Shown here piece by piece: positions 6,905-36,837 of a stretch of DNA of 64,000 nucleotides. This DNA comes from Lacrimispora indolis DSM 755 (lineage in GTDB: Bacteria; Bacillota; Clostridia; Lachnospirales; Lachnospiraceae): the NCBI RefSeq assembly GCF_000526995.1, contig NZ_AZUI01000001.1, forward strand, positions 5,436,001 to 5,500,000. The letters run 5' to 3'. The position numbers were made by a program, and so were the translations under genes. A model generated the notes under the pieces. It had not been told where the DNA came from, made no database searches, and was given only the letters and a program-made list of their open reading frames with translations. How positions within the stretch are numbered: position 1 is the stretch's first letter; each line of letters begins with the position of its first letter.

Positions 6905-7018
6905 AATTACCTCTTCCTCTTTACGGAACCGCTTTTCCCTGTACTGCATCTTTTAAATCAAGCGGATCAAAGCCTTAAAGTGATTTTGGAATTCTCCATC
7001 ACTTCTTCCTTCTTTGTT

Positions 7019-7723: not shown

Positions 7724-7807
7724 AATATCTCTCCTTACTGTATTATTTAATTTTCTACCGCACCACAGAACATCCCTGCCGTCTGCCGGGAACGGTATAC
7801 CGTCTGT

Positions 7808-14889: not shown

Positions 14890-16374
14890 TTAGTATAATC
14901 CTGTCATTAATCCAATACCAAGCATGCTTAAAGCTACTATTACACAAGAAGCAATAGACATAATTACTCCTATTTTTGCAAAATCTTTGATTGAAAAATA
15001 ACCGGCCGAATATGCAATTACGTTTGTTGGAGTAGAAGTAATTAAAATAAATGCTTGAGAAGTTGCTAATGCTGCAGGGAATGCAATAGATAATGTAGGA
15101 ACTCCAATAGTCATAGAAAGCTGTATAACAATTGGAATAACAATACTTGCAGATACTGTAGCACTTGAAAGAGCAATATTCATAAACGATATACTTAATA
15201 CAACAATAAAAATCATCATAAAGGCGCCAAATTCACCTATGCTTCCTAATAAACCAAGAGCGATCCAGTTTGCAACTCCAGTGTTATAAAGTATCATACC
15301 AAGTGATATACCGGAAAGAACTAATATGATACTACTCCAGGAAATTTCTTTTTCAATTTCTTTGTATTTTGTTTTACTAACACCCGGGAAGAAAAAAAGC
15401 ATTGTGGTAAAAATAACCGGCAATGAAATTGGAATTGAAACGCCTAATAATGCTGATACTTGAGGGGAAAATAGCCAAAGTAAAACTGTAATAACAAAAA
15501 CAATTAGGGTTACTTTTTCATCACGACTGAACTTAGGTTGATTTTTTGCTTCTCTTTTAATTTCTTCATTTGTTTTTTTAAGATACTTAATTTCAGGTTT
15601 AAATACTAATAAAAGTAGACCCCATGCAACAGGAATATGTATTAATGAAATTGGAACTCCATATATCATCCAATCTAAGAATGTCATTTCAATTCCCGCC
15701 ATATCTTTCATAAAACCAATTGCTAATGGATTTGGGCCATTTCCTGCAGGAGTTCCAAAGCCTCCTATTAAGCTACCCCATGCAACAGAAATGAGAAGAG
15801 CTTTACCAAAGTTACTTTCCATTGGCTTTACCCCTTCATCATCTAAAAGAGCTTTGGCCAAGGGCATAAGCATAGCAGCAACAGCCATATTTGAAATCCA
15901 CATTGATAATAAAGCACCTACTGTTATAAAGCCTAATAAAACGTATTTTGTATTATTTCCGGTTATTGAAAGACAACTGATAACAATTCTTTTTCCAAGT
16001 CCTGATTTATTGATAAATGCACTGAGGATAAACACACCTATAAAAAACACAACAGTGTTATTTCCAAAACCTATTTGAACAATATTAGAAAAGGAATCAA
16101 TTCCAGCCAATGCTAATAATACCATTGACAGTAAACCTGTAAAGTGAAAAGGTATTGCTTCTGTTATCCAAAGTATGAGAGAGAAAACTAAAATAGCCAG
16201 TGCTTTTTGTCCTTCAGCTGTTAACGGTGCATCCTTTATATCTGTAAAAGATGCCGGCAAGCTAATATTCATAATAAACATCAACACAATAATACTAATA
16301 CCTATATAAATCCATCTTTTTAAATCTAAAGATAAACCATTTGATTTACCGGGTACGGTTTCCATTTTTTTCAT
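14890..16374 (-). CDS. DASS-family (SLC13) sodium:carboxylate symporter
   Basis: 494-residue multi-spanning protein. It carries the SLC13 features: ILWITEAIPFHFTGLLSMV near residue 65, the SNMAVAAMLMPLAKALL segment near 160, and ITSTPTNVIAYSAG near 445, matching the second SNT-type sodium/substrate motif. The family imports di- and tricarboxylates, sulfate or related anions with sodium. It is last in the order dehydrogenase to transporter, so the imported substrate is probably an acidic, perhaps cyclic, compound processed by these enzymes. GGAG precedes the ATG. Confidence 0.92.
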   Translation of the reverse strand: MKKMETVPGKSNGLSLDLKRWIYIGISIIVLMFIMNISLPASFTDIKDAPLTAEGQKALAILVFSLILWITEAIPFHFTGLLSMVLLALAGIDSFSNIVQIGFGNNTVVFFIGVFILSAFINKSGLGKRIVISCLSITGNNTKYVLLGFITVGALLSMWISNMAVAAMLMPLAKALLDDEGVKPMESNFGKALLISVAWGSLIGGFGTPAGNGPNPLAIGFMKDMAGIEMTFLDWMIYGVPISLIHIPVAWGLLLLVFKPEIKYLKKTNEEIKREAKNQPKFSRDEKVTLIVFVITVLLWLFSPQVSALLGVSIPISLPVIFTTMLFFFPGVSKTKYKEIEKEISWSSIILVLSGISLGMILYNTGVANWIALGLLGSIGEFGAFMMIFIVVLSISFMNIALSSATVSASIVIPIVIQLSMTIGVPTLSIAFPAALATSQAFILITSTPTNVIAYSAGYFSIKDFAKIGVIMSIASCVIVALSMLGIGLMTGLY

Positions 16375-16564
16375 TACCTATCTCCTTTTTTTACGTTTTT
16401 CTTCACAATATACAAAAAAAATGAAAGTTGTTTACTTGCCCATATATCGGTCCTTGTTGCAATCAAAATAGGAATAGATAAAGTTATTCATCCCTGATTT
16501 TTGTGCACCTTGACTTACCAATACGATTTGATAATACACCCCTAAAAATTTAAATACTAACTGA

Positions 16565-19426
16565 TTATTGCTTTGACATTTCGTTTAATAGCTTTTCCGG
16601 GTTAGCCGGAAGTGAAGTTATACGCACTCCAACAGCATCATAAATTGCATTAATAATTGCCGGTATAGTTGGTAGTGGAGCCGGTTCTCCAATTCCTTTT
16701 GCTCCAAGGGGGCCAAAAGGATCTATCTCTTCCACTATGCTGGAGTGAAACATTGGAACATCCACACTGGTAGGCAGAATATACTTTGCAAAATCCTTAT
16801 TTACAGGTATGCCTTCCGATAATTCAAAGTTTTCCATTATGGCTTGCCCAATACTTTGAACAGCACCTCCTTCAATTTGCCCTTCAATGCCTTGAGGATT
16901 TATTGCTCTTCCAACATCATGAGAAGCCCAAATACCAAGAACATGAACCTCTCCTGTAGATGAATCAACAGCAACCTCTGCAATCTGAGTTCCAAACACA
17001 TATGCCTGCCAAGGCTTACCTTTACCATTTACAGGGTCTATGGCTTCATGATGAGCTGTAAATGTGCCTGAACCTAAAGGAACGATACCTCTAACCTTTT
17101 TACAAATATCTACAGCCTCTTTAAGTGAAAGATTATAATTGGAATGCCCTGGTACAAAAATTCTTCTGTTTTTCATACATATAGAGGTTGAATTAACATT
17201 CCAATATGCGGCAATCTCTCTGATGAATTTTCCTTTTACATCTCTGCAGGCGTTTAAAACTGCATTACCAATCATATAGGTTTGTCTGCTTGCTCCGGCA
17301 TGAGCTGCTTCAGGAGCTCTTGCTGTATCATTGTCCCCAATGATAATATCATCAGGATACATTCCAAGTTCATCTGCTGCAATCTGTGTTAAAACTGTCA
17401 GAATACCTTCGCCAATCTCGGTAACACCGGTTAAAACTTTAGCAGTACCGCCATCATCAATTTCGACAAATGCACTGGCTCTATCAGCAGTTGCAGAACG
17501 TCCTATTGCATACCATGAAGTTCCGACACCACGGCCATATTTAAACCTTGATTTACAAAGTTCAAGTGCAGCCGGAGATTTAAACTCACTTCCCGGTATA
17601 AAGGGTTCTGCGACTTGATCACCTTTTAAATCTTTTCTCACTTGGCCTCTTATATTGGAAGGACCTGATTCCCATTTAGCCATTTGAGCACATTTTTTTA
17701 ATGTTTGTGTATAACCTACCCTGCCTAATACTTGTTGAGTATGCGTTGAACTTCCATCCTTTAATCCGTTTAATAAGCGAAGTTCAATAGGATCAATTTC
17801 CAAACGCTGTGAACAAATATCAATGGTGGATTCAATTGCAAAAGTTGGCTGCAATACTCCAAAAGTTCTCATCGCACCGGAAGGAGTATTGTTTGTATAA
17901 TAGCCTTTAGAAATAACCTTTACATGATCAATTTCATAAGGGCCTGCCCCTAACATGGCCGCTTTTGCGACAGTTCCTTTCGTTGAAAAGCAATATGCTC
18001 CTCCATCTGCTTTTATTTCAATTTCTATAGCTTGTATTTTGCCATTCTTTTTTAATCCAATTTTATGATGAATTAATACAGGATGGCGTTTCGCACTGCC
18101 AATCATGGAATCTTTTCTGGAAAAGACCAACTTCACAGGACGCTTTGTTTTAAGTGCGGCAAGAGCAAGAATTCCTTGATAAATCATGTCTTCTTTCCCG
18201 CCAAAACCTCCGCCTACAGGTGTCATAATAACCCTGATTTTGCTTATAGGCATATTTAAAATCTTTGCTAAAAGCATACGGTGCTGCGTAATATCCTGAT
18301 CACATGATTTTACAACCAATACACCATCGGGATCTAAATATGCAAGGCCTGCTTCCGTTTCAAGATAGGCATGATCAACACATTGAGTTGAATAATCTTG
18401 TTCTATAATTATATCACTATTGCTAAAACCGCTTTCAACATCTCCTTTTATAACAGATGTTGTGCTAACCATGTTATTGGGATGATCATTATGAATTACT
18501 GATTTACAATTAATCGCCTCTTCAATGCCGGAAACTATGGGAAGTTTACTATATACAATTTCAATTAGTTTTTCAGCTTCTTCAGCTTCTTCTAAAGTTT
18601 CTGCAACAATAGCTGCAACCGGTTCGCCATAAAAACGAATTTTACTCTTTGCCAAAACAGGTTGATCATGATAGTAAACTCCGAATCCATCCTCCCCTGG
18701 TACATCCTCACTGGTAATAACAGCTTCAATACCGGGCATTTTTAATGCCTTTTCGTAATCAATACTTAAAATATCAGCATGAACTTCTTTGCTTCTGACA
18801 AGATGTATATGAAGCATTCTGGGCATCTTCATATCAGCTGCATATTCAAGAGCACCTGTAACTTTACCTTTCGCATCAACTCTTTCTGTACAAGAGCCGA
18901 TTATCTTGTCGGTATCAGTAACAATTGGTTCTAAACAATCGACGCTTTTTTCATTATTTAATATATCCCTGGCCAATTCTATAGCATCCATTATTTTAGC
19001 ATAACCTGTACATCTGCAAATATTTCCACTAAGGCTTCTTCTGATTTCATTTCTATCCGGATTTTTATTCTTTTTTAATAAAGATGTTGCTGCCATGATC
19101 ATACCCGGAGTACAATAACCACATTGAACAGCTCCAACTTTCATGAAAGACTTTTGAATAATGCTTAATCCTTCGAGACCAATGCCTTCTATGGTTAGAA
19201 TTTCACAGTTATTAGCTTTGATAACCGGTATCAGGCAGCTTTTTTTTAGTACTCCATCAAGTAAAACGGAACATGTTCCGCATTCTCCTGCATTGCAACC
19301 TTTTTTTGTCCCGATTAAATGAAATTCTTCTCTTAAAAAATCTGCAAGTCTCATGGACGGAGCAACATATTTACAAACTTTTCTTCCATTTACTTTCATT
19401 TCAATCTTTTCAAGTTGTGAATTCAT
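16565..19426 (-). CDS. Xanthine-dehydrogenase-family molybdoenzyme: [2Fe-2S] domain fused to Mo-binding subunit
   Basis: 953 residues. The N-terminal 155 residues form the two [2Fe-2S] modules, with cysteines at 44, 49, 52 and 64 (GCNAGECGTC...C) and at 102, 105, 137 and 139 (CGYC, CRC). The remainder is the aldehyde oxidase/xanthine dehydrogenase large subunit: a/b hammerhead, then VGGGFGGKED, GAMRTFGVLQ and the catalytic glutamate in GAKGIGEPAPLP near the C-terminus. The FAD subunit is encoded separately at 19700. Such enzymes hydroxylate C-H bonds of heterocycles, aldehydes or aromatics with water. A molybdopterin cofactor is expected. AGAGGAGGA precedes the ATG. The substrate is unknown. 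Confidence 0.92.
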   Translation of the reverse strand: MNSQLEKIEMKVNGRKVCKYVAPSMRLADFLREEFHLIGTKKGCNAGECGTCSVLLDGVLKKSCLIPVIKANNCEILTIEGIGLEGLSIIQKSFMKVGAVQCGYCTPGMIMAATSLLKKNKNPDRNEIRRSLSGNICRCTGYAKIMDAIELARDILNNEKSVDCLEPIVTDTDKIIGSCTERVDAKGKVTGALEYAADMKMPRMLHIHLVRSKEVHADILSIDYEKALKMPGIEAVITSEDVPGEDGFGVYYHDQPVLAKSKIRFYGEPVAAIVAETLEEAEEAEKLIEIVYSKLPIVSGIEEAINCKSVIHNDHPNNMVSTTSVIKGDVESGFSNSDIIIEQDYSTQCVDHAYLETEAGLAYLDPDGVLVVKSCDQDITQHRMLLAKILNMPISKIRVIMTPVGGGFGGKEDMIYQGILALAALKTKRPVKLVFSRKDSMIGSAKRHPVLIHHKIGLKKNGKIQAIEIEIKADGGAYCFSTKGTVAKAAMLGAGPYEIDHVKVISKGYYTNNTPSGAMRTFGVLQPTFAIESTIDICSQRLEIDPIELRLLNGLKDGSSTHTQQVLGRVGYTQTLKKCAQMAKWESGPSNIRGQVRKDLKGDQVAEPFIPGSEFKSPAALELCKSRFKYGRGVGTSWYAIGRSATADRASAFVEIDDGGTAKVLTGVTEIGEGILTVLTQIAADELGMYPDDIIIGDNDTARAPEAAHAGASRQTYMIGNAVLNACRDVKGKFIREIAAYWNVNSTSICMKNRRIFVPGHSNYNLSLKEAVDICKKVRGIVPLGSGTFTAHHEAIDPVNGKGKPWQAYVFGTQIAEVAVDSSTGEVHVLGIWASHDVGRAINPQGIEGQIEGGAVQSIGQAIMENFELSEGIPVNKDFAKYILPTSVDVPMFHSSIVEEIDPFGPLGAKGIGEPAPLPTIPAIINAIYDAVGVRITSLPANPEKLLNEMSKQ

Positions 19427-19501
19427 AATCCTCCTCTCTTTATCATTTGAAAATTATATTTAATTTCAAATGATTGATTGTAAAATCGAAATAGACAACC
19501 A

Positions 19502-19581
19502 AATAAAAAAATCCACAGTAATTTTCCATGATGGTAGTATAGAGTTACGACACAACATCTGCCGAAGGAAAATTACTGTGG
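19502..19581 (-). terminator. Long-loop hairpin with T-run in the molybdoenzyme leader
   Basis: Perfect 15-bp arms (19513-19527 and 19567-19581, core CCACAGTAATTTTCC) enclose a 39-base loop and are followed on the minus strand by ATTTTTTTATTT. It sits 75 bp before the molybdoenzyme start. It could end read-through from the FAD-subunit gene or act as a regulated attenuator; the long loop is unusual for a plain terminator. Confidence 0.6.
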
Positions 19582-19599
19582 GCGCACCCAATTATATAT

Positions 19600-19640
19600 A
19601 AAAAACGTAGAACGCAAGTGAGGAGCACTTAACTTTTACG
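19600..19640 (-). terminator. Terminator after the FAD-subunit gene
   Basis: The minus strand reads CGTAAAAGTTAAGTG, loop CTCCT, then CACTTGCGTTCTACG and TTTTTT. The stem has an internal bulge. It lies 60 bp past the FAD-subunit stop and just before a second hairpin, so the molybdoenzyme gene may be separately controlled. Confidence 0.65.
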
Positions 19641-19699
19641 GAACGAGGGCAGATACAAGCTCTAAAACGGCTGAAATATTGCAATTTACATTTACTTTT

Positions 19700-20581
19700 T
19701 TATTTCAGTACAATATTAATTTCAGCAAGTGATTCATAAAGACCATCTGGCAAAAAATTTCTAATAACCGTTTTTCTATACTCTCTTCTGCTTCGAGACT
19801 GAACAATATCAGATGGAATATATTTAACAATTTCATGAATAATTTCCTTTGAAATAAGGTTACCTTTTAAATTGTCTTCAATCTCTTTTAACCTTGCAGG
19901 AAGCGGACCAACTCCTCCAAACGCAATTCTCACATCTTCAAAATATCTACCTGTTTTATCAGCTTTTACTAAAAAAGCAGAATTCACAGCAGAAATGCAT
20001 AAAGAACGCCTAAGCCCTACTTTTTTAAATGCACATCCATAATCTTTTAATATAGGACATGAAACTGAGTGGATAATTTCACCTTTAAATAATGCGGTTT
20101 TACCAACTCCCTTAATAAAATCAGCGATTGGTATATCTCTTTTGCAGATGCCTTGCTCATTCTTCATAATAGTATGAATGATTGCATCCATCGCTAATAA
20201 AGGCGGAAGCATATCTCCGGTAGGAGATGCATTGGCTAGGTTTCCTCCAACGGTTGCCATTTCTCGTATTTGCTGTTCAGCAAACCAGATAGCTGCATGC
20301 TTCATCAAAGGCACATGGTCAGTCAACCTGGGATCTTCTAAAAACTGTTGAATCCTGGTATTAGAACCAAATGTTATAAAATCATCTCTGGATTCTATAA
20401 TAGAAAAATCTCCAATGCTGCTTATATCGACAGCAAATTTGGGATTACTAAAAACATTTTTTTCTTTTGCAAAAAGGTCTGTTCCTCCGGAAATAATATC
20501 AAAAGAATCATCATTACTTTCAATTATACTGAAAAGTTCTTCCTTTGATTTGGGCATATAATAGTCTTTGTATTGAAGCAT
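19700..20581 (-). CDS. FAD-binding subunit of the xanthine-dehydrogenase-family enzyme
   Basis: 293 residues of the CoxM/XdhB type. FAD-binding segments are ISGGTDLFAKE (about residue 35) and MATVGGNLANASPTGDMLPP (about 110); the C-terminal CO-dehydrogenase flavoprotein domain contains AFGGVGPLPARL. It passes electrons from the Fe-S clusters of the 953-residue partner to NAD or another acceptor. It is the gene immediately upstream of the partner, but two hairpins lie between them. Confidence 0.92.
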   Translation of the reverse strand: MLQYKDYYMPKSKEELFSIIESNDDSFDIISGGTDLFAKEKNVFSNPKFAVDISSIGDFSIIESRDDFITFGSNTRIQQFLEDPRLTDHVPLMKHAAIWFAEQQIREMATVGGNLANASPTGDMLPPLLAMDAIIHTIMKNEQGICKRDIPIADFIKGVGKTALFKGEIIHSVSCPILKDYGCAFKKVGLRRSLCISAVNSAFLVKADKTGRYFEDVRIAFGGVGPLPARLKEIEDNLKGNLISKEIIHEIVKYIPSDIVQSRSRREYRKTVIRNFLPDGLYESLAEINIVLK

Positions 20582-20594
20582 GCAACTTTTTCTC

Positions 20595-21701
20595 CTATCC
20601 CGGTATCTTCACAACAACTTTGATAGCGTCATCAATTCTTTCTTTTGAATATTTCAGCGCTGTAAGCAAATCATTAAAACCAAATGTATGAGTATGGATT
20701 AGAGAAGCATCAAAATATTTTTCACTGATTAATGAAGCAGCTCTGTGAACAGCACTCTTACCTTCACCTCTAATACCAAACATAGAAATATTATTGCGAA
20801 CTAAAGCTGCGACATCAACTTCAACAGGCTTTGACGGGAAAGCGGCTAAACAGATTTTTCCACCTCTTTTGAGCATCTTGGCAGCATCATTGATAGCACT
20901 TGCAGCTCCAGAGCATTCCAGTACATAGTGAACACCTTCACCGTTCGTAATCGTTTTAACTGCTTCAACTACATCTTCATTTCTGACATTTACCGTATAA
21001 TCTGCACCAAGTTTTTTTCCAAGTTCAAGTCTGCTATCTCTTGTACCCGTCAAAATAACCGGACTCGCGCCTAAAGTTTTAGCAACCGCTACTCCCATTA
21101 AACCGATAGGACCCGGACCTGTTACAACCAGCGACTGACCTGCAAATAAACCGCCAAGTGCATCTAAGCCATACATAGCGGTTCCGGCTGTTACAATCAG
21201 TGTTGCTTCTTCATCTGTAACATTGTCTCCGACATGACATAAAGTATTAACATTGTTAATAGCATATTCAGCAAAGGCGCCGTCTGTTGTAAAGCCGTTA
21301 GCTCTGTGACCTTTGTCATTTCCTTCGTAATTTTTGCCATAGTTTAAGCAGGAGGTATACATACCTTCACGGCAACGTTCACATCTTCCGCATCCGGCAT
21401 GAATCTCCACGGCTACTCTATCACCGACTTTATACTCATCAACGCCTTGTCCTAACTTTACGATAGTACCCATGTATTCATGACCCGGTGTAAACCCTTT
21501 ATTGAAAGGTAAACCACCTTGAATCAAAGCAGGTGAACCACGTTCGATAATCTCTAAGTCAGTTGCACAGATCGCTACTGCATCAACTCTTACAAGTACT
21601 TCTGCTTTTCCGGGTTGCGGAACTGTTTTTTCTGTTAGTGTAAGCTCACCGGGGTTTCCCAAAACCCACGCTTTCATCTTCTCGGGGATTTCATACTTCA
21701 T
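20595..21701 (-). CDS. Zinc-dependent medium-chain alcohol/polyol dehydrogenase
   Basis: 368 residues. Catalytic zinc site: CATDLEIIERG and PGHEYMGTIV; structural zinc cysteines CGRCERCREGMYTSC; Rossmann motif VTGPGPIGLMGVAVAK. It resembles threonine/sorbitol dehydrogenases, which oxidise secondary hydroxyls with NAD(P). It lies between the IolD-like gene and the FAD subunit; 13 bp separate it from the latter. A plausible role is oxidising a ring or chain hydroxyl to the ketone used by the IolD-like enzyme. AAGGAGATA precedes the ATG. Confidence 0.92.
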   Translation of the reverse strand: MKYEIPEKMKAWVLGNPGELTLTEKTVPQPGKAEVLVRVDAVAICATDLEIIERGSPALIQGGLPFNKGFTPGHEYMGTIVKLGQGVDEYKVGDRVAVEIHAGCGRCERCREGMYTSCLNYGKNYEGNDKGHRANGFTTDGAFAEYAINNVNTLCHVGDNVTDEEATLIVTAGTAMYGLDALGGLFAGQSLVVTGPGPIGLMGVAVAKTLGASPVILTGTRDSRLELGKKLGADYTVNVRNEDVVEAVKTITNGEGVHYVLECSGAASAINDAAKMLKRGGKICLAAFPSKPVEVDVAALVRNNISMFGIRGEGKSAVHRAASLISEKYFDASLIHTHTFGFNDLLTALKYSKERIDDAIKVVVKIPG

Positions 21702-21786
21702 AAAAATATCTCCTTTTTAATGTTATATTTTACCTGTAGCAATTTGCATCTGCTACTAATAATTTAAACGGATCTACTATGTTGTT

Positions 21787-23667
21787 TTAAAAGCCAATTT
21801 CATGCTTCAGTTTCTGAACCCTTTCGCACCAATTGCCAACATTCCAATCTCCGAAAGCACCAAGACCGGACAATTCATCACTTCCGTAATATACAGGAAC
21901 ATGGATCAGGGACAGTCCATCATACTCATATGCCTGCTTTAAAGCTTTTTCTAATTCTTCTATGGTTTCTCCGCCATAGAAACCTTTCACACCTTTTACA
22001 GACTCTGCCATTTGTACGTAGTCAACAACCACTGCATCATCGGTTTTATATTCTTTGTCATACTGAGAGTATTGAAGACTGGTGATAGCGCCCATACGGC
22101 GGTTATCAAACAGGACAATCATACCTTTTAATTTATGTTGAACTGCATCAATTAAAATTTGAGGATTCATCATAAAGCTGCCGTCACCTGTAAAGGCCAT
22201 AGGATATTCATTCTTCCCGGACAATGCAAAAGCAAGCATGGAAGAAACTGCAAAACCCATATAAGATGCACCGGTTTCTGTTATCGTTTGTCCGGGTTTT
22301 TCATCAGTCACAATTTGGAAACCATTTGCCTGAACATCACCTGCATCAAATATTTTAATGCATCCATACACATCAGCAAAATCTACTGCTTTTTTTATTG
22401 CAGCCGGTTCTGTTAGAATAGTTTTTTTCCATTTTTCATCTTCTAAAACAGGATTATCATATCTTAATTGTTTAAAAGAATCCCACTCGTTCCGTTTATT
22501 TATGCACTCTTTTAACCACTCAGGGTCAGATGATTTACTTTTGGCATTTTTTACCAGATCTATTAATTTCAGGATAACTTCCTGTGCATCTCCTTGTAAA
22601 CGCACACTATTGTTATACTGACCCAAGTCATCATAATCACAATTAATATTAATGATTTTCCTTGCCTTTCGATAAGCAGTTCCGGAACTATCCCATTGAC
22701 AAACGCCTCTTGCTCCAATGACAATCATTAAGTCACATTCATTCATAGCATAATTTCCGCAAATTGATCCTTTAGAACCGCCAACACCCATATTGCGCAA
22801 TTTTGAATATGGATATAAGCCCGGGACCTGAGGGCCATGTACATATGCGGCATCGATGAGGTCTAAAAATTCCTCTAATACTTCAGGAGATACATTTGCA
22901 GCTCCGCCTCCGGTTTTAACTGTGATTCTGGTTGAATTACAGATAGACTCCAGTGCGTCATTAAAAAGATTTAAATCTGTACTTATGATTTTTGACTCCT
23001 GTGATCTTTGAGGAAACTCAAGCAAATTGCAGTCTTTCATCAATTTTGGTTGAATATTCATTGGAAGCAACATATAAAACGGTGATTGTTTTACACCCCC
23101 ATTGACGGTAGCATCACCTCTTTTTAAAGCTGTAAAAACAGCTTCCGGGGTATGTAATGAATATGCAGATCCTAGTGTTGAAAAAAGACGAAGAAAAAGC
23201 TCTTGTTCTCTTTTCGGGATTTGCTGCATATTCGGTCCTTCACTATGACTTGTTTCATCTCCCATAAGATAATATACGCCAAGGCCATTGGACAATGAAA
23301 CTAAGGATCCGGCTACTGCTTGTAACGCTCCTGGTCCAATAGAAGTAAAAACTGCCGAAACTTCATTATACTTCCATCGAAGCATCGATGCCACATGAGA
23401 TGCTTCTACTTCATTGCGGACATTTACTGTCCTGATAGCATTTTCTTCTTCGTATATACGCAGTATTTCTCCTACATCTGTCATTCCATGACCAAAAATA
23501 CCTATAAAAGTTCTGACACCTTGATTTAATAAGCCTAAAACAACAGCTTCACTGAGACTGATATCCTGAAATTGTTTTAAGCTGCCTGCTTCTACAGCTT
23601 TTTGTAAGGTGCCATAAGTTTTAATCTCTTTCGCACGTTTTCTTCTTTGTTCAATTATTTCATTCAT
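21787..23667 (-). CDS. IolD-like TPP-dependent hydrolase (acetolactate synthase superfamily)
   Basis: 626 residues with the three TPP-enzyme domains. The pyrimidine domain has IGIFGHGMTDVGEIL and the glutamate in VRNEVEASH; the TPP domain has FTGDGSFMMNPQILIDA and LFDNRRMG. Length and the GIFGHG opening match IolD, which hydrolyses a trihydroxycyclohexane-dione in inositol breakdown. No other inositol gene (iolB, C, E, G or J) is present, so the natural substrate is probably a related cyclic 1,2- or 1,3-dione. It sits 12 bp downstream of the RpiB-like gene. GAGG supports the start. Confidence 0.85.
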   Translation of the reverse strand: MNEIIEQRRKRAKEIKTYGTLQKAVEAGSLKQFQDISLSEAVVLGLLNQGVRTFIGIFGHGMTDVGEILRIYEEENAIRTVNVRNEVEASHVASMLRWKYNEVSAVFTSIGPGALQAVAGSLVSLSNGLGVYYLMGDETSHSEGPNMQQIPKREQELFLRLFSTLGSAYSLHTPEAVFTALKRGDATVNGGVKQSPFYMLLPMNIQPKLMKDCNLLEFPQRSQESKIISTDLNLFNDALESICNSTRITVKTGGGAANVSPEVLEEFLDLIDAAYVHGPQVPGLYPYSKLRNMGVGGSKGSICGNYAMNECDLMIVIGARGVCQWDSSGTAYRKARKIININCDYDDLGQYNNSVRLQGDAQEVILKLIDLVKNAKSKSSDPEWLKECINKRNEWDSFKQLRYDNPVLEDEKWKKTILTEPAAIKKAVDFADVYGCIKIFDAGDVQANGFQIVTDEKPGQTITETGASYMGFAVSSMLAFALSGKNEYPMAFTGDGSFMMNPQILIDAVQHKLKGMIVLFDNRRMGAITSLQYSQYDKEYKTDDAVVVDYVQMAESVKGVKGFYGGETIEELEKALKQAYEYDGLSLIHVPVYYGSDELSGLGAFGDWNVGNWCERVQKLKHEIGF

Positions 23668-23679
23668 ACTTAAACCTCA

Positions 23680-24294
23680 TTAATCCTCAATATATTTTTG
23701 TAATAGAGTTTGTGTTTTTTTATCTAAGACACTGATAAAACCAGGGAAACAGGCAACTGCTTTTACAATTTCATATGGCATATCATCAAGTATTTCAAGA
23801 AAAGGTCTATGGGCAATTTGAGAAATACGTGAAAGAGTCTGTCTTGACTTTTGCTGTGATTCTTTTCTGGTTTCAGGATAGCCGCATCCACTTTCAACGC
23901 TGAAAATCCGATCAAAGATAAAACGAAGATTTACATCTGCCGCCCAGCCATAACCTTGATTTAAGGGTAAAGAAATACAATTTCCTCCATTGATTTGTGT
24001 GAACAGCCAGGCGTCTAAAGAAGTAGAAATCAGTCCGCAAAATACTCCCGGATACTGCATCGCAGCATTTAAATATCCTTGTCCTGTCCCACAGCCTCCA
24101 ACAACAAAATCAACTGAGTCAGAGTTTAATAACATCGCTGTCATTAACCCTGTATGTATATATGTCAGTTCCGGCAATTCTGGATTTCCGGTCATACCTA
24201 AATTTAAAACTTCATGTCCCCGGCCTTCTAATGCCTTAATAATATCACTGTTTTTTTGTTGAGCGCTTACTTCATTGATTACTGCGATACGCAT
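23680..24294 (-). CDS. RpiB/LacAB-family sugar isomerase-like protein
   Basis: 204 residues. The core resembles ribose-5-phosphate isomerase B/LacAB: MRIAVINEVSAQQKN and the active-site loop VVGGCGTGQG (Cys present), then FCGLISTSLDAWLFTQINGG. It is about 50 residues longer than typical RpiB, with a C-terminal extension containing ISQIAHRPFLEILDDMPYEI. It probably interconverts an aldose/ketose or a related hydroxy-ketone in this pathway. AAGGAGG precedes the ATG. Confidence 0.85.
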   Translation of the reverse strand: MRIAVINEVSAQQKNSDIIKALEGRGHEVLNLGMTGNPELPELTYIHTGLMTAMLLNSDSVDFVVGGCGTGQGYLNAAMQYPGVFCGLISTSLDAWLFTQINGGNCISLPLNQGYGWAADVNLRFIFDRIFSVESGCGYPETRKESQQKSRQTLSRISQIAHRPFLEILDDMPYEIVKAVACFPGFISVLDKKTQTLLQKYIED

Positions 24295-24322
24295 AAATAC
24301 CTCCTTATTATTCTTGATAGTT

Positions 24323-25264
24323 TTAATCGGTATTTTTAATTAATTCTTCTGTTCTGTCTGCAATATCCTGAACATTCATTTTCAGTTTACTAAATATGGC
24401 TTCATCATCACCTGACTCAAGAAAAATATCCGGAAAACCAATTCTAAGCAGAGGACAACAATGTTTTTCTGTTAATACTTCCGCAACAGCACCGCCAAGA
24501 CCGCCAATTCTGCTATGATTTTCAACAGTTATAATTCTTCCGCATTCTCTGGCTGCTTTAATAATTATTTCTTCATCCAACGGTTTTATTGTTCCCATAT
24601 GAATCACACGAACATTAATTCCTTTTTTCCGCAGCAGCTTACCGGCTTCTAATGCTTTTGGACTCATCATCCCGGTTGAAATAATTGCAGCATCCTTTCC
24701 ATCCATGAGCTCAACACCTTTTCCTAATTCCATCTTATAAGACTCCGGAAAGATAGTAGGAACAGGACATCTGACAGTTCTTAAATAGACCGGTCCCGGT
24801 GTTTCAAGTGCTAAGCGGACAGCAGCTGCAGTTTCAATCGCATCACTTGGATTTAATATTGTCATATTTGGCATGGCTCTCATAAGTGCCATATCAGCTA
24901 CAGATGAGTGTGTCGCTCCGGCTCTGCCCGTCGGAAGGCCGACATAAGCAGCATTAATTTTAACGTTTAATTTTGTATATGCAACCGAAACACGAATTTG
25001 ATCAGCCGCACGTTTTGCTAAAAAGACAGCAAAAGCAGAAACAAAAGGGATACAGCCAACAGACGCCATTCCGGCTGCCATTCCAACCATATTTGCCTCC
25101 GCAATTCCACATTGGATAAATCTTTGTGGATATTGTTCTCTAAAAAGATGTGTTTGTGTTGAAGGACATACATCCGCATCTAATACATGAAGCATAGGAT
25201 ATTCATCAGCGAGGTCTACTAAAGCTTTTCCAAAAGCCACTCTTGGTGCAACCATATTATTCAT
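24323..25264 (-). CDS. Transketolase, C-terminal subunit (set 1)
   Basis: 313 residues: pyrimidine-binding domain (ARVAFGKALVDLA-type start, then FIQCGIAEANMVGMAAGMAS with the catalytic Glu) and the C-terminal domain (IITVENHSRIGGLGGAVAEV). It pairs with the N-terminal subunit two bases upstream to make a full transketolase, as in split transketolases of anaerobes. It would move two-carbon units between sugar phosphates or analogous substrates of this pathway. Confidence 0.93.
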   Translation of the reverse strand: MNNMVAPRVAFGKALVDLADEYPMLHVLDADVCPSTQTHLFREQYPQRFIQCGIAEANMVGMAAGMASVGCIPFVSAFAVFLAKRAADQIRVSVAYTKLNVKINAAYVGLPTGRAGATHSSVADMALMRAMPNMTILNPSDAIETAAAVRLALETPGPVYLRTVRCPVPTIFPESYKMELGKGVELMDGKDAAIISTGMMSPKALEAGKLLRKKGINVRVIHMGTIKPLDEEIIIKAARECGRIITVENHSRIGGLGGAVAEVLTEKHCCPLLRIGFPDIFLESGDDEAIFSKLKMNVQDIADRTEELIKNTD

Positions 25265-25266
25265 AC

Positions 25267-26091
25267 TTATCTCTCCAATTCTTTCATAGCCAAGGCATAT
25301 TCCTCTTTATTAGGAGCCTTGCCATGCCAATGGTAATCATTTTCCATAAATGAAACGCCTTTACCTTTGACAGTCTTTGCTAAAATCATAACAGGTCCTT
25401 CATTTGATAAGTTTTTAGCATGTTCAAGTGTTGATACAAGCTCTGTCATAGAGTGTCCGTCACATTCTAAAACAGTCCAGTCAAATGCTTCCCATTTTTT
25501 CTTTAAGGAACCCAGTGAGAGAGTTTTATTTACTTCTCCCGATAATTGAACACCGTTATAATCGGTAATACCAATCAGACCTTTTGTTTTATTTGCCCCT
25601 GCATACATAGCAGCTTCCCACACTTGACCTTCTTGAGATTCTCCATCGCCAAGGAGTGTATATACATAAAAATCTAAATTTTTTGCATCTCTGCCGGTAC
25701 ACATACCTATACCTAAGGATAAGCCTTGACCTAAAGATCCGGATGAAATATCAACCCCCGGTGTTTTGTGCATATCCGGATGTCCTTGGAGAATAGTTCC
25801 TTCTTGATCAAAAGTCAAAAGCACTTCCAATGGAAAGAAACCTCTCTTAGCCAATGTACAATAATATCCGGGTGTTGAGTGTCCTTTGGAAAGGATAAAA
25901 CGATCTCTGTTTTCCATTCTCGGATTGCTTGTATCTATATTCATTATACGAAAAAATAAGGCAGTCAGAATATCGGCTTCGGATAAAGAGCCTCCGGTAT
26001 GACCGCATCCTGCATTAAAAATTGTCTTTAATATGTGACGTCTGATATCAATAGCCGTAGCTTCAAGATCAGGAATACTCATTTTATTCAT
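25267..26091 (-). CDS. Transketolase, N-terminal subunit (set 1)
   Basis: 274 residues, TPP-binding domain: GCGHTGGSLSEADILTALFF, LSKGHSTPGYYCTLAKRGFF and the TPP/magnesium motif LLGDGESQEGQVWEAAMYAG. It forms one enzyme with the downstream C-terminal subunit. It is the second gene of the cluster, after the semialdehyde dehydrogenase. TAGGAG precedes the ATG. Confidence 0.94.
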   Translation of the reverse strand: MNKMSIPDLEATAIDIRRHILKTIFNAGCGHTGGSLSEADILTALFFRIMNIDTSNPRMENRDRFILSKGHSTPGYYCTLAKRGFFPLEVLLTFDQEGTILQGHPDMHKTPGVDISSGSLGQGLSLGIGMCTGRDAKNLDFYVYTLLGDGESQEGQVWEAAMYAGANKTKGLIGITDYNGVQLSGEVNKTLSLGSLKKKWEAFDWTVLECDGHSMTELVSTLEHAKNLSNEGPVMILAKTVKGKGVSFMENDYHWHGKAPNKEEYALAMKELER

Positions 26092-26151
26092 AATTTTACT
26101 CCTAGCCTATTTAAGACTTATCATTATAATCGGTTTATGTTGCGACTATCC

Positions 26152-27654
26152 TTATATTGTACCATCCCATGTTGACACTTCGGTCTGATGGATCTCACCT
26201 TCATCAAACCAATGACTCGTTACTACTTTCGTCTCTGTATAGAAACGGTAGCCGTCTTTTCCAAGGCAGTGTAAATCGCCTATAAAAGATTTCTTATGTC
26301 CCGAGAATGGGAATGCACCTACTGGGACGGGAATACCAACATTCACACCAACCATGCCGCCATCTGTGTATCTTGCAAATTCTCTTGCATAATATCCGTT
26401 TTGCGTAAATATAACAGAGCCGTTTGCAAATTCATTGTGATTCATAAGCGCCAAACCTTCATCAAAGTTTTTCACACGTTTGATACAAAGTACGGGACCA
26501 AATATTTCGTTGTCTCCAATTGTCATATCCGGTTTGATGTGGTCTAAAATAGTTGGCCCGATATAGAATCCGTTCCCGAAACCTTCCACCTTCACACCTC
26601 TTCCGTCTAACGCAAGCGTAGCACCTTCTTCCAAACCTTTTTCTATCCAGGAAAGTACGGATTTCATATGAGACTCATTGACTACAGGGCCCATTTTTGA
26701 TTCTTTATCATACGCAGGACCCACTTTTATTTTAGAGGCCAAATTCACAATTTCTGCAACCAGTTCATCCGCAATTGCTTCTTCCACAACCACTACAGGC
26801 AATGCCATACATCTCTCTCCGGCACAGCCAAATGATGCATTGATGATGCCTGCGGCCGTCCTCTTAATAGGCGCATCCCTTAAAACTAAAGCATGATTCT
26901 TCGCTTCGCACAAAGCCTGCACTCTTTTTCCGTGAGCTGCTGCCGTGGAATAAATATGCATCCCCACGCTTGTAGAACCGACGAAACTGATACCTTTGAT
27001 GTCTTCATGTTTTAATAAGATTTCTGCTTCATTTCTTGAACAAGTTACAATATTAAGCACTCCGTCAGGTAATCCGGCCTCTTTATATAATTCAGCAATC
27101 CTCATACACGTCTGCGGTGTAAATGTAGCCGCTTTTAATACGATTGTGTTACCGCAAGCGATACACATAGGTGTCATCCATCCCATAGGAATCATTGCCG
27201 GAAAGTTGAAAGGAACGATTCCCGCAAATACACCCAACGGCTCCCTGTATAATACAGTGTCATATCCGGAGGACGCATCCATAAGGCTTTCACCCATCAT
27301 AAGAGACGGCGCTGCGATTGCTTGTTCCGTACCTTCTTTTGCCTTTAAAACATCTCCTTTTGCTTCATCCCATGTCTTTCCATTTTCTGTAGCCAAGAGA
27401 TGCGTCAATTCATCCATGTGCTCAATCAGTAAGTCACGTAATTTATATAAAATTTGCACTCTCTTGATAACCGGTGTACCGGACCAACCGGGATAGGCCG
27501 CTTTTGCCGCAGCTATTGCTTCTTCAACCTCCTGTGCTGTACAAGTCGGAACTTGTGCAATCACCTCTCCCGTACTCGGGTCAAACGCATCCAAATATTT
27601 TGTTGTTTTTGATTCTTTAAACTCTCCATTGATAAAATAAGGTAGTCTTTTCAT
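26152..27654 (-). CDS. CoA-acylating (methyl)malonate-semialdehyde dehydrogenase
   Basis: About 500 residues from the ATG at 27654, matching the usual family start (MKRLPYFINGEF); an upstream in-frame GTG at 27708 is possible but has no ribosome site. Family marks: catalytic Cys in FGCAGERCMALPVVVV, VPFNFPAMIPMGWM, and GIPVPVGAFPFSGHKKSF. IolA/MmsA enzymes turn malonate- or methylmalonate-semialdehyde plus CoA into acetyl- or propionyl-CoA. In this cluster it would handle the C3 fragment released after ring opening by the IolD-like enzyme, as in inositol catabolism. Confidence 0.92.
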   Translation of the reverse strand: MKRLPYFINGEFKESKTTKYLDAFDPSTGEVIAQVPTCTAQEVEEAIAAAKAAYPGWSGTPVIKRVQILYKLRDLLIEHMDELTHLLATENGKTWDEAKGDVLKAKEGTEQAIAAPSLMMGESLMDASSGYDTVLYREPLGVFAGIVPFNFPAMIPMGWMTPMCIACGNTIVLKAATFTPQTCMRIAELYKEAGLPDGVLNIVTCSRNEAEILLKHEDIKGISFVGSTSVGMHIYSTAAAHGKRVQALCEAKNHALVLRDAPIKRTAAGIINASFGCAGERCMALPVVVVEEAIADELVAEIVNLASKIKVGPAYDKESKMGPVVNESHMKSVLSWIEKGLEEGATLALDGRGVKVEGFGNGFYIGPTILDHIKPDMTIGDNEIFGPVLCIKRVKNFDEGLALMNHNEFANGSVIFTQNGYYAREFARYTDGGMVGVNVGIPVPVGAFPFSGHKKSFIGDLHCLGKDGYRFYTETKVVTSHWFDEGEIHQTEVSTWDGTI

Positions 27655-27726
27655 TGATATACAAAGCCAGTCCCTTCCGCCTTTCGGCAACTTATAGTCA
27701 GTAATCACAAAGCTTTAAATGCAAAA

Positions 27727-27778
27727 AACAAAGAAAGTTTTGTACTATACTTAATTTAGCACAAAACTTTCTTTGTTT
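27727..27778 (-). terminator. Hairpin between the LysR gene and the catabolic operon
   Basis: Arms AACAAAGAAAGTTTTGT (from 27727) and ACAAAACTTTCTTTGTTT (to 27778) flank a short loop and are followed on the minus strand by a T-run. The position 70 bp past the LysR stop fits a terminator. Because it lies just upstream of the dehydrogenase start it could also be part of a regulator site. Confidence 0.6.
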
Positions 27779-27848
27779 CCAATACTTAATTTATCATAAA
27801 TTTATAATAAATTTGTTATCATTGGCAAAATATGTATGTTTGCATTAG

Positions 27849-28745
27849 CTAAAAGCACGGTTCATAGTTGTCGGAAGTTTCAAAATAGCGGATCAAATAG
27901 TCCCTGAAGTTCTTAGCGGACGAAGACAAGTAATCATCCTCTCGCCACGTCAAATTTAAATAGCTGTAACACCTGGGAAATGCAACAGGAAGCAAAGAAA
28001 TATTATCACCGCCCAATACTTTGCCCCAAGTAATAGAAGGGGTAAAGGATACTCCCAGCCCTTTTTCAATAAAATTTTTTACCGTTTCCGGACTATTACT
28101 TTCCAGAATAATTTTGGGCTTAAAGTTCACCATTTCACAATAAAAGTCAGTTATCGTACGGATACTTTTGCCTTTTTGCAAGCAGATAAAATCCAATTCA
28201 GATAAATCATGTAAATTTATTGCTTCTTGATCTGATAAGGGATTGCTTTTAGGCAGGGCAACTAAAATTTCTTCTCTAAACAACGAACATGCGCAAGGAT
28301 GATCGAAGATCGGATGAGCAGTAGAGTATAAAAATAAATCATGGGCGGCATTTGATGCTGTTTTATAATCCCCATGCAAAATTTTAAATTTAGTCGTTGG
28401 GTAAATTTTGTTAAATTCCATTATAATTTCAGGAAGTATTTTTGATGCCGATGACAGAGAAATAATGACTGTGGTGTCAAAATCTTTTTTACTCTCCTCA
28501 ATATCTGTAGTAATACCGTCAAGCTCCTTAAAGACCCTGTTTGTTCGTTCTAACAGTATTTTGCCATATGTATTTAGCTTAATGTACTTGCCTACTCGAT
28601 CAAAAACCGCCACACCCAATTCATTTTCTAAATTATTGATTGTCCGGCTCAATGAAGGCTGCGCAATATGAAGTTCATTAGCAGCCTTAGTGAAATGTTC
28701 CAATTCCGCAATTTTTTTAAAATACAATAATGATTGAAGATCCAT
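27849..28745 (-). CDS. LysR-type transcriptional regulator
   Basis: 298 residues. N-terminal winged HTH: LYFKKIAELEHFTKAANEL, then AQPSLSRTINNLENELG. The substrate-binding domain covers about 90-298 and includes FIEKGLGVSFTPSITWGKV. It precedes the catabolic cluster on the same strand, separated by a hairpin, and is the best candidate to control it in response to a pathway intermediate. ATGAGGGGGTG lies upstream of the start. Confidence 0.92.
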   Translation of the reverse strand: MDLQSLLYFKKIAELEHFTKAANELHIAQPSLSRTINNLENELGVAVFDRVGKYIKLNTYGKILLERTNRVFKELDGITTDIEESKKDFDTTVIISLSSASKILPEIIMEFNKIYPTTKFKILHGDYKTASNAAHDLFLYSTAHPIFDHPCACSLFREEILVALPKSNPLSDQEAINLHDLSELDFICLQKGKSIRTITDFYCEMVNFKPKIILESNSPETVKNFIEKGLGVSFTPSITWGKVLGGDNISLLPVAFPRCYSYLNLTWREDDYLSSSAKNFRDYLIRYFETSDNYEPCF

Positions 28746-29195: not shown

Positions 29196-30164
29196 TTATT
29201 TTTTATATCCTCTGACAAATTCCAGCACCTGCCGGTATATTCCCATTTCATCCAACTGATACTTTTGCAATAATTCCTTTGCCGGTCCGGACTCACCAAA
29301 CACATCCTGGATTCCTATTTTCTTCACCGGAACCGGGTATTCTTTGCACACGGCATCACAGACCGCACTTCCCAGTCCGCCCACAGTTGAATGCTCTTCA
29401 ACCGTAACAAGCTTCCCGGTCTCTCTGGCTGCCCTGCAGATAAGTTCCTCGTCCAGCGGCTTGATAGTATGGATATTGATGACTCTTGCAGAAATCCCAT
29501 CAGATTCCAGACGCTTTGCTGCTGCAAGTGTTTCCCACACTTCAAGGCCGGTGGCAATCAACGTCACATCCGTTCCTTCACGCAGCACAACACCCTTTCC
29601 CAGTTCAAACCTATAATCCGGCGTATCGTTGATCACAGGAACTGCCAGACGTCCAAACCGCATATATACCGGTCCTTCATATTCCGCCGCTGCCTTTACC
29701 GCTGCTTTTGCCTCTATGTCATCTGACGGGCAGAGCACAACCATCCCCGGAATTGTCCTCATCAGGGCAATATCCTCGTTGCACTGATGTGTGGCTCCAT
29801 CCTCCCCGACAGAAATACCTGCATGGGTAGCCCCGATTTTCACATTCAGGTGGGGATAACCGATGGAATTCCTGACCTGCTCAAACGCCCTGCCTGCCGC
29901 AAACATGGCAAAGGTGCTTGCAAACGGTATCTTGCCCGTGGCAGCAAGACCGGCAGCAATTCCCATCATATTGCACTCTGCAATCCCGCAGTCCACATGA
30001 CGCTCCGGATATGCCTTTTTAAAGATTCCGGTCTTTGTTGCTGCCGCCAGATCCGCATCCAATACAACGATTTTATCATTTGCCTTCCCCAGTTCCACCA
30101 GAGCATTGCCATAGCTTTCCCTGGTGGCAATCTTCTTTACAGCAATTTCCTTTATCTCAGGCAT
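29196..30164 (-). CDS. Transketolase, C-terminal subunit (set 2)
   Basis: 322 residues: ATRESYGNALVELGKANDKI, catalytic Glu region VDCGIAECNMMGIAAGLA, GEDGATHQCNEDIALMRTIP, and VTVEEHSTVGGLGSAVCDAV. It overlaps its N-terminal partner by 13 bp. It differs clearly from set 1, so it is not a recent duplicate. Together with the transaldolase upstream it forms a pentose-phosphate-type sugar rearrangement unit. Confidence 0.94.
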   Translation of the reverse strand: MPEIKEIAVKKIATRESYGNALVELGKANDKIVVLDADLAAATKTGIFKKAYPERHVDCGIAECNMMGIAAGLAATGKIPFASTFAMFAAGRAFEQVRNSIGYPHLNVKIGATHAGISVGEDGATHQCNEDIALMRTIPGMVVLCPSDDIEAKAAVKAAAEYEGPVYMRFGRLAVPVINDTPDYRFELGKGVVLREGTDVTLIATGLEVWETLAAAKRLESDGISARVINIHTIKPLDEELICRAARETGKLVTVEEHSTVGGLGSAVCDAVCKEYPVPVKKIGIQDVFGESGPAKELLQKYQLDEMGIYRQVLEFVRGYKK

Positions 30165-30991
30165 AATGCTTCACCTGCTTTCTCCAAATCTGCCATCGCA
30201 ATTTCATACTGCCCGTCATCAGGCGCAGTCCCATGCCATGCTACAGAGCCCTCCATAAAAGAAACTCCCTTGCCTTTTATGGTTTTCGCGATGATGGCTG
30301 TTGGCCTCCCCTTTGTCTGCCTTGCTTCCTCAAATGCATGCTCGATCTGTTCAAAATCATGTCCGTCAATATTGATGACATGGAAATTAAACGCCTCAAA
30401 CTTTTTGTCAATGGGATATGGAGAGCAGACCTCATCAATAGAACCATCAATCTGAAGTCCATTATTATCGACGATAACCACCAGATTATCCAGTTTTCTA
30501 TGGCCGGCAAACATCGCTGCCTCCCAGACCTGTCCCTCTTCTATCTCCCCGTCTCCAAGAAGGGTATACACCCGGTATGGTTCTTTGCTCAGCTTTGCAG
30601 AAAGCGCCATCCCCACCGCTGCTGAGATTCCCTGTCCCAAAGAGCCGCTGGACATATCCACCCCCGGAATATGCTTTCTGTCCGGATGCCCCTGTAAGTA
30701 GGAGCCGGTATGGCGCAGGGTCTTTAAGTCCTCCACCGGAAAAAACCCCCGGTTTGCCAGGGTTGAATAATACCCCGGTGCCACATGGCCTTTGGACAGC
30801 ACAAACCGGTCCCTGTCTTCTTTTGCCGGATGTTCCGGGTCAATATTCATCTCCCGGAAATAGAGCCAGGTGAACAGGTCTGCCGCCGACAGCGAGCCGC
30901 CGGGATGACCGGATTTTGCACTATGTACTGCGGTCACTATCCCTTTGCGGATTTCATTTGCCGATTTTTCCAATTCCAGATAATTCCCCAT
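30152..30991 (-). CDS. Transketolase, N-terminal subunit (set 2)
   Basis: 279 residues: SAKSGHPGGSLSAADLFTWL, LSKGHVAPGYYSTLANRGFF and LLGDGEIEEGQVWEAAMFAG. TPP-binding half of a split transketolase. It is 18 bp downstream of the transaldolase-family gene and overlaps the C-terminal subunit gene. This half is closer to the standard housekeeping N-terminal subunit than set 1 is. Confidence 0.94.
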   Translation of the reverse strand: MGNYLELEKSANEIRKGIVTAVHSAKSGHPGGSLSAADLFTWLYFREMNIDPEHPAKEDRDRFVLSKGHVAPGYYSTLANRGFFPVEDLKTLRHTGSYLQGHPDRKHIPGVDMSSGSLGQGISAAVGMALSAKLSKEPYRVYTLLGDGEIEEGQVWEAAMFAGHRKLDNLVVIVDNNGLQIDGSIDEVCSPYPIDKKFEAFNFHVINIDGHDFEQIEHAFEEARQTKGRPTAIIAKTIKGKGVSFMEGSVAWHGTAPDDGQYEIAMADLEKAGEALCLR

Positions 30992-31009
30992 CTTCTCTCT
31001 CCTCCCAGC

Positions 31010-31663
31010 TTACTCTCCAAAAACAGCACGGTAATCCGCCTTAAATTTTTCAATCCCCTGATCAGTCAGCGGATGTTTTGTCATCTGTTCCAGTACGCCG
31101 TACGGAACCGTGGCAATATCCGCCCCTGCAAGCGCACAGTCAATTACATGAATGGGGTTCCGCACACTGGCGGCAATAATCTCCGTTTCAATCCCTGAGA
31201 TATTGAACATATCTGCAATGGTCCTGATTAGGTCCATTCCTGGCTGGGAGATATCATCGAGACGTCCCAGAAACGGTGATACATAAGTGGCACCTGCCCG
31301 TGCTGCCAGCAGCGCCTGGTTTGCACTGAAAACCAGAGTCACATTGGTTTTGATTCCCTCTGCGTTCAAAACCTTCACCGCTTTTAAGCCTTCTACTGTC
31401 ATGGGAATTTTAACAACCATGTTTGGATGGATTGCCGCAATCTCACGCCCCTCTTCAATCATTCCCTGGGCATCTGTCGTTGTCGCTTTTACTTCTCCGC
31501 TGATTGGTCCGTCTACAATAGAAGTAATCTCACGGATCACTTCCACAAAATCTCTGCCTTCCTTTGCAATCAGTGACGGGTTCGTTGTTACCCCGCAGAT
31601 AATCCCCATATCATTTGCCTTTTTGATATCCTCTACCTTTGCTGTGTCAATAAAAAATTTCAT
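31010..31663 (-). CDS. Transaldolase/fructose-6-phosphate aldolase (TalC/FSA family)
   Basis: 217 residues from the ATG at 31663, preceded by AAAGGGGAAG; an upstream GTG in frame is less likely. TIM-barrel class I aldolase: [29 protein letters not shown], the Schiff-base lysine in [10 protein letters not shown], and [15 protein letters not shown]. The small-subunit family includes both transaldolases and F6P aldolases, and sequence alone does not separate them here. Its operon with a transketolase favours transaldolase. Confidence 0.92.
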
Positions 31664-31797
31664 TTTTCTTCCCCTTTCATTCACCTTAATATTATTTTCA
31701 TTTTATGTATTAATTCATTTAATAAATACATTCTATTAAACAATAACATCTTTTATGAAAATGTCAATAGGTTATTTCCACTTTCTGAACCGGCCAG

Positions 31798-35510: not shown

Positions 35511-35516
35511 CTTAGT

Positions 35517-36833: not shown

Positions 36834-36837
36834 TATA

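Follow-up and report, generated by a model that had tools for sequence, protein, structure and literature searches.

In the sulfo-transketolase (sulfo-TK) pathway (SqwGH, SqwI, SqwD), as laid out in the excerpts of PMC11659671 drawn on here, a split transketolase whose pocket His is replaced acts with glyceraldehyde-3-phosphate as acceptor and a gain of xylulose-5-phosphate, an isomerase works on the remaining unphosphorylated aldose, and one variant carries a CoA-acylating aldehyde dehydrogenase. A minus-strand run of ten open reading frames (ORFs) in Lacrimispora indolis DSM 755, at 14890-28745 of a 64,000-nucleotide stretch (NZ_AZUI01000001.1, positions 5,436,001 to 5,500,000; hereafter the window), is best read as a carboxylate twin of this pathway. 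As sulfo-TK would require, the gene for an RpiB-like isomerase adjoins that for a split transketolase. The run differs in that its substrate would be a carboxylate rather than a sulfonate, in its IolA-type dehydrogenase, in the presence upstream of a thiamine diphosphate (ThDP)-dependent enzyme, a Zn-dependent alcohol dehydrogenase (ADH) and a xanthine-oxidase-family molybdenum (Mo) enzyme, and in a single presumed ketol transfer as opposed to two. No sulfonate-specific family was named among the ten genes by family scans. We give a probability of about one half to the reading that the run is a kinase-free catabolic operon, in which the product of the ThDP enzyme, 3,4-dihydroxy-5-oxopentanoate, would be converted by isomerase and transketolase to xylulose-5-phosphate and malonate semialdehyde, and the latter to acetyl-CoA.

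With the inositol (iol) pathway the run has in common an IolA-type dehydrogenase and an IolD-like ThDP enzyme with an IFGHG motif. It differs in that NCBIfam/Pfam-type scans of the ten genes gave no match to iolB, iolC, iolE, iolG or iolJ, in the 21.8% identity between its ThDP enzyme and the genome's true IolD, and in the position of the iol operon, which lies elsewhere. Oxidative 2-deoxyribonate catabolism, in the excerpts of PMC6365646, resembles the cluster and its relatives in the enzyme kinds of two downstream sets (D2 and D4, see below) and in a Mo enzyme serving as sugar dehydrogenase; a ThDP enzyme, an isomerase and a transketolase are not among the parts that these excerpts name. The DhuI-DhuD route (excerpts of PMC12838403) likewise has an RpiB-family isomerase acting on a free deoxy-uronate, and a KduD-like short-chain dehydrogenase/reductase (SDR) occurs in some relatives of the window cluster; the route leads, however, to 2-keto-3-deoxygluconate, and the terms transketolase and TPP do not occur in PMC12838403. 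The ten genes include no SDR that could stand beside the isomerase as the reductase DhuD. Azoarcus cyclohexane-1,2-dione hydrolase (CDH) belongs to the same ThDP superfamily, but is distant, with many other members matching the ThDP enzyme better. No description of the pathway was found in PMC literature on transketolase with inositol or malonate semialdehyde, nor on quinate, in keeping with an earlier interpretation of this DNA from its letters (the sequence-only reading), which knew of no described pathway with such a set. The run is a real, conserved and, within the literature searched, undescribed catabolic unit.

The ten-gene run and its relatives

From the LysR gene (starting at 28745) to the DASS gene (ending at 14890), the order is LysR regulator, IolA-like dehydrogenase, N- and C-terminal halves of the split transketolase, RpiB-like isomerase, ThDP enzyme, ADH, FAD and large subunits of the Mo enzyme, and DASS transporter. 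ORF and family scans agree with the sequence-only reading on the ten genes, their order and families, and the lack of a kinase. The intergenic gaps measure 2-140 bases from the LysR gene through that of the Mo FAD subunit, and widen near the 3' end of the run to 273 bases before the Mo large subunit and 190 before DASS.

A scan of species genomes returned 385 relatives of the ThDP enzyme, of which the best 80 loci were retained, and all counts refer to 81 loci including the window; ORFs were called and clustered by us and then matched to module members, and with many short contigs the counts are lower bounds. The RpiB-like isomerase is present in at least 41 loci, a transketolase (split or full-length) in at least 28 and both in at least 26. 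Methylmalonate semialdehyde dehydrogenase (MMSDH) was found in at least 14, a succinate semialdehyde dehydrogenase (SSADH)-like gene in at least 16, an IlvD-like gene in at least 15 and an SDR in at least 8, while the ADH, the Mo large subunit and a GFO/IDH dehydrogenase occur in at least 27, 23 and 38 loci, respectively. Importers comprise TctA (at least 10 loci), DASS (at least 6), GPH (at least 12), CUT1 (at least 10) and CUT2 (at least 9). Since the same partners recur beside the ThDP relatives, their grouping is more than chance, which bears out the proposal that the genes form one unit; synteny dividing them into separate known units was not seen for the ThDP/isomerase/transketolase core, nor for ADH, Mo enzyme and ThDP enzyme. 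The proposed control by a LysR regulator fared less evenly: such a gene (27849..28745; HTH_1, LysR_substrate) does head the run in the window, but it is not the rule, as an IclR regulator, of which the window has none, occurs in at least 40 loci.

The partners were grouped by us into upstream (U) and downstream (D) sets. U1 consists of a GFO/IDH dehydrogenase, frequently accompanied by importers for sugars, and U2 of the ADH and Mo enzyme, frequently accompanied by importers for acids; L071 and L074 carry both sets. D1, as in the window, comprises isomerase and transketolase, with or without MMSDH. D2 combines the isomerase with a cupin, a BKACE and an ADP-forming CoA ligase in four loci (L033, L034, L041, L051), a fifth having only a BKACE-like gene. 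D3 pairs the SSADH-like and IlvD-like genes, and D4 joins the isomerase to a CoA ligase, a CoA transferase, an SDR and a thiolase in two loci (L007, L012); the names in D2 and D4 are based on one representative per cluster. No set, upstream or downstream, was seen in seven of the 81 loci. As the sets on both sides vary, the constant element of the pathway is the ThDP step. When the 81 ThDP proteins were placed on a quick tree, in which 20 of 78 inner branches stay open, a minimum of 26 changes of downstream label was needed, against 44.8 on average after shuffling; the label is clustered on the tree yet changed repeatedly, with short contigs inflating the number of changes. U2 appears in two distant clades, one in Clostridia, among spirochaetal U1/D1 enzymes, and one in Proteobacteria.

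Plasmid records follow the same pattern, with U2/D3 in Phaeobacter, U1/D3 in Labrenzia and a third upstream set in Salipiger. In the latter (L089:11947-22261), genes for a beta-hydroxyacid dehydrogenase, an HbpS-like protein, an AP_endonuc_2 TIM barrel and a TRAP transporter precede SSADH and IlvD, together with the ThDP enzyme. ThDP clusters were found in Pelagibacteraceae, Polynucleobacter, Spirochaetota, Chloroflexota, Planctomycetota and Clostridia, and Anaerotruncus colihominis DSM 17241 and Phaeobacter piscinae S26 are among the strains that have one; in the window's own family the distribution is patchy, the enzyme being present in 2 of 397 genomes, its own included. In HIMB114 a bacteriorhodopsin-family gene (L076:15193-15942) stands after the U2/D3 cluster, as does, in a second Pelagibacteraceae genome (L058), a gene that was grouped with it in the ORF clustering.

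Enzymes of the unit

The split transketolase (N-terminal half, 25267..26091, Transketolase_N; C-terminal half, 24323..25264, Transket_pyr and Transketolase_C) has as its nearest solved chain 6yaj, itself a split transketolase. Neither of two canonical pocket features is present: Tyr107 replaces the phosphate-orienting His (motif RSYR), and GRAG stands instead of GEDG. Both His and GEDG are retained in the window's second transketolase, whose Ser position is occupied by Ala. The His column was matched across enzymes by position and alignments (residue 107 here, 108 in the sulfofructose enzyme). For the sulfofructose transketolase, an AlphaFold comparison in the excerpts of PMC11659671, a paper on Faecalicatena, gives the motif RAFDR, where His has become Asp, and ties this position to substrate specificity. 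The C-terminal part was readable at the site for 25 transketolases (20 split, 5 full-length) from the 28 loci that have such a gene. None of the 25 retains the His of the RSFHR motif, its place being taken by Tyr in 15, Asp in 4, Ala in 5 and Phe in 1. These linked enzymes are diverse (23-62% identical to that of the window) and come from very different families, which makes more than one origin of the change probable.

As a control, 50 transketolase copies were found in 13 genomes, and the residue was determined in the 30 copies given as loci; 13 of these were already in the set (one being the window's second copy), and 17, from 12 of the 13 genomes, were unlinked. The unlinked copies have His in ten cases, Asp in five, Arg in two and Tyr in none; the two Arg copies, 30-35% identical to the window's second transketolase, are probably DXS-like. 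Tyr at this position was seen in linked enzymes only, and Asp in linked and unlinked ones alike. The unlinked split enzymes with Asp (L121, L127, L130, L131 and L139) are possible sulfo-TK or other non-phosphate transketolases. The L. indolis genome holds ten matches to the transketolase C-terminal half, of which one (5994094-5995008) has an internal stop.

The RpiB-like isomerase (23680..24294) scores 209.5 bits against PRK09273 (cut-off 137), and its nearest solved chain is 4u8e, S. agalactiae gbs1892 (E 1.8e-50, residues 1-180 of 204), which we take to be DhuI. The excerpts of PMC12838403 place DhuI in the RpiB/LacA/LacB family and describe it as isomerising an unphosphorylated deoxy-uronate. 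When searched in 15 whole genomes, the isomerase was present in 13, and in 11 it is single-copy and lies inside the ThDP locus (adjacent or within about 5 kb, by manual comparison of coordinates); there are three copies in the L. indolis genome and two in one draft genome. Both genomes without it are of the D3 kind, with SSADH and IlvD instead.

The dehydrogenase (26152..27708), of the CoA-acylating malonate (methylmalonate) semialdehyde type, scores 569 bits against the MMSDH model TIGR01722 (cut-off 448.5), with 1t90 as nearest solved chain. With the iolA product of the iol operon in the same genome it shares 77.8% identity, which makes malonate semialdehyde its likeliest aldehyde and agrees with the suggestion of the sequence-only reading that acetyl-CoA, formed by IolA-type chemistry, is a likely end product. 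In the 6.38 Mb genome (one contig), a true IolD (912.2 bits) lies at 2448529, in one gene run with a class II aldolase gene, iolA, iolC, iolE and iolG; ten proteins were scanned there, none of which was recognised as iolB. The statement that inositol genes are missing therefore holds for the ten-gene run but not for the genome, where iolC, iolE and iolG belong to this separate operon, and the run is a second, distinct unit.

The ThDP enzyme (21787..23667; TPP_enzyme N, M and C) finds its best curated match in IolD (TIGR04377), at just 151.7 bits against a cut-off of 715. It has the IFGHG and RNE motifs in common with the true IolD of the genome, while two other ThDP paralogues that were compared have neither. 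An AlphaFold model (pLDDT 84, pTM 0.88) was compared by fold, which separates no families, and the match to CDH (E 9.1e-10) is weaker than those to acetolactate synthases. The step may be a dione cleavage, as motif kinship with IolD would suggest, or a decarboxylation; neither sequence nor fold discriminates between the two.

IolM and IolN belong to the Thermotoga inositol pathway. The ADH (20595..21701) scores best against Tdh (220.9 bits), with 213.5 bits for another Tdh model and 199.7 for IolM, none of which reaches its cut-off, and is 65-89% identical to the ADHs called in 14 loci with ADH and Mo enzyme. The latter is made up of an FAD subunit (19700..20581; FAD_binding_5, CO_deh_flav_C) and a large Mo/2Fe-2S subunit (16565..19426; Ald_Xan_dh_C, MoCoBD_1/2, Fer2_2), whose best NCBIfam models, Se-dependent xanthine dehydrogenase (583.4 bits) and the full-length aldehyde oxidoreductase NF045668 (571.1), also remain under their cut-offs. 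The DASS sodium-coupled anion symporter (14890..16374; TIGR00785, 256.7 bits, cut-off 198.6) has counterparts adjoining the Mo large subunit in L006, L007, L008 and L011. On Thermus plasmids, ADH relatives (61%) have TctABC as neighbours, together with genes for a creatininase-family protein and a TIM-barrel isomerase. This presence of TctABC speaks for an acid substrate; DASS here and TctABC in proteobacterial relatives point the same way, as the sequence-only reading had proposed. One such plasmid (L099:7406-16452) has Tm-1-like and class II aldolase genes in addition, and its genes may constitute another acid pathway.

Proposed route and alternatives

We infer each reaction, the C5 intermediate and the direction of flow as follows. 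DASS would import an acid, which the ADH and Mo enzyme would oxidise; carbon balance offers, as a first guess, a C6 acid losing CO2 as the starting compound. The ThDP enzyme would then cleave a C-C bond to give 3,4-dihydroxy-5-oxopentanoate (OHC-CHOH-CHOH-CH2-COOH), which the DhuI-like isomerase would turn into the 4-ketose. The split transketolase would move a C2 ketol unit to glyceraldehyde-3-phosphate, yielding xylulose-5-phosphate, destined for the adjoining pentose-phosphate set, and malonate semialdehyde, from which the IolA-like dehydrogenase would form acetyl-CoA and CO2. The chemistry points to this intermediate: release of malonate semialdehyde by a transketolase requires the ketose HOOC-CH2-CHOH-CO-CH2OH, and the aldose before the isomerase must then be 3,4-dihydroxy-5-oxopentanoate.

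The same compound would serve the other downstream sets, being split to glyceryl-CoA by BKACE in D2 or thiolase in D4, or oxidised in D3 to 2,3-dihydroxyglutarate, followed by IlvD-type dehydration to 2-oxoglutarate. That all four sets would close on central metabolites from one C5 compound is the main argument for this intermediate. In the excerpts of PMC6365646, BKACE on the one hand, and a CoA-synthetase/dehydrogenase/thiolase/CoA-transferase set on the other, correspond to two routes proposed for breaking up the skeleton of 2-deoxyribonate; these are the key enzyme kinds of D2 and D4, into which the same C5 compound would therefore fit. A broader and more tentative proposal, which we hold to be possible but short of probable, is that the clusters encode a widespread, modular and unnamed pathway. 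In it, a C5 deoxy-uronate formed by a new ThDP enzyme would be dismantled without a kinase through ketol transfer, BKACE or thiolase, or oxidation and dehydration, and the first step of the pathway would be a ThDP chemistry undescribed for sugar acids.

Several observations weigh against the C5 route. The motifs common to the ThDP enzyme and true IolD suggest a dione hydrolase, and we know of no abundant C5 cyclic dione. DASS and the ADH-Mo pair are confined to part of the ThDP family, and the carbon and electron balance leaves the Mo step unexplained for every substrate tried. Of the 28 transketolase loci, no more than 13 showed MMSDH; two more carry an aldehyde dehydrogenase of another kind (L035, L059), and in 13 the stretch covered shows none, many contigs being short. 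The BKACE and the D2 CoA ligase score below curated NCBIfam cut-offs, and since 5 of the 17 unlinked transketolases are of the Asp type, loss of the His alone is not specific.

The product of IolD is normally a C6 deoxyuronate. The ADH and Mo enzyme might accordingly convert a cyclic acid (e.g. quinate or shikimate) to a trihydroxycyclohexane-1,2-dione, which the ThDP enzyme would open to the C6 5-deoxyuronate ahead of the isomerase, transketolase and dehydrogenase. We regard this as unlikely, even though IolD is the best curated match, the two motifs set the enzyme apart from the two paralogues, the ADH is both IolM-like and Tdh-like, and the Thermus neighbourhood of its relatives would suit such a substrate. 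The score lies far from the IolD cut-off and, on chemical grounds, a single transketolase step on the C6 deoxyuronate would release malate semialdehyde, whereas the C5 compound gives malonate semialdehyde; the end products of D2, D3 and D4 would be tetronate or 4-hydroxy-2-oxoadipate, and no gene for either was seen in the loci. With the low identity to true IolD, this means that the hydrolytic ring opening suggested by the sequence-only reading does not follow from the evidence.

Alternatively, the ThDP enzyme could be a 2-keto-acid decarboxylase acting on the unsaturated-uronate product DHU, the new aldehyde being oxidised by GFO/IDH (U1) or the Mo enzyme (U2). The relationship of the isomerase to DhuI, the KduD-like SDR of some relatives and the frequent IclR regulators and sugar ABC or GPH importers are consistent with this, as is the Mo enzyme proposed for deoxyribose oxidation in Pseudomonas simiae in the excerpts of PMC6365646. 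The idea of an unsaturated-uronate substrate failed, however, in a co-location test: GH88/GH105 hydrolases occur in only 9 of 30 genomes, and none of their 24 matches lies in a ThDP locus, so far as coordinates and contig numbers tell, making this alternative improbable.

There is a slighter chance still that two units adjoin by accident, one for import and oxidation (DASS, Mo enzyme, ADH) and one holding the ThDP enzyme, isomerase, transketolase and IolA-like dehydrogenase; close ADH relatives do exist without a ThDP enzyme nearby and the wide gaps fall in the Mo-DASS part, but ADH and Mo enzyme stand beside the ThDP gene in clades as distant as Clostridia and Proteobacteria. Least probable is a sulfonate pathway, that is, a sulfo-TK variant with SqwGH, SqwI and a CoA-acylating dehydrogenase, as the same three activities in a row and the same altered His position are countered by a dehydrogenase that is an IolA paralogue and by D2, D3 and D4, which require a carboxylate.

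Neighbouring genes and wider significance

Just upstream of the run, at 29196..31684 on the minus strand, lies the second split transketolase with a TalC-type transaldolase, an ordinary pentose-phosphate set that could recycle xylulose-5-phosphate. Directly downstream of the DASS gene are subunits of a 2-oxoacid:ferredoxin oxidoreductase (12074-14587), whose relatives among the other 80 loci are distant (29-32%) and restricted to L065. A sorbose/mannose-type phosphotransferase system with SIS-domain and CutC genes occupies 6149-10348. At 33267-38532, on one strand, a DEXH helicase-like gene, a BrxD-like gene (162.2 bits, cut-off 350) and a 564-aa gene without a family are possibly part of a defence island.

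If the C5 route and its modular extension are correct, the transketolase-based dismantling of unphosphorylated acids would be a general strategy rather than a peculiarity of sulfosugars. A testable product would then be available for a ThDP family named so far only as thiamine-pyrophosphate-dependent, acetolactate-synthase-like or IolD, and Pelagibacteraceae, spirochaetes and gut Clostridia would have one catabolic core in common.

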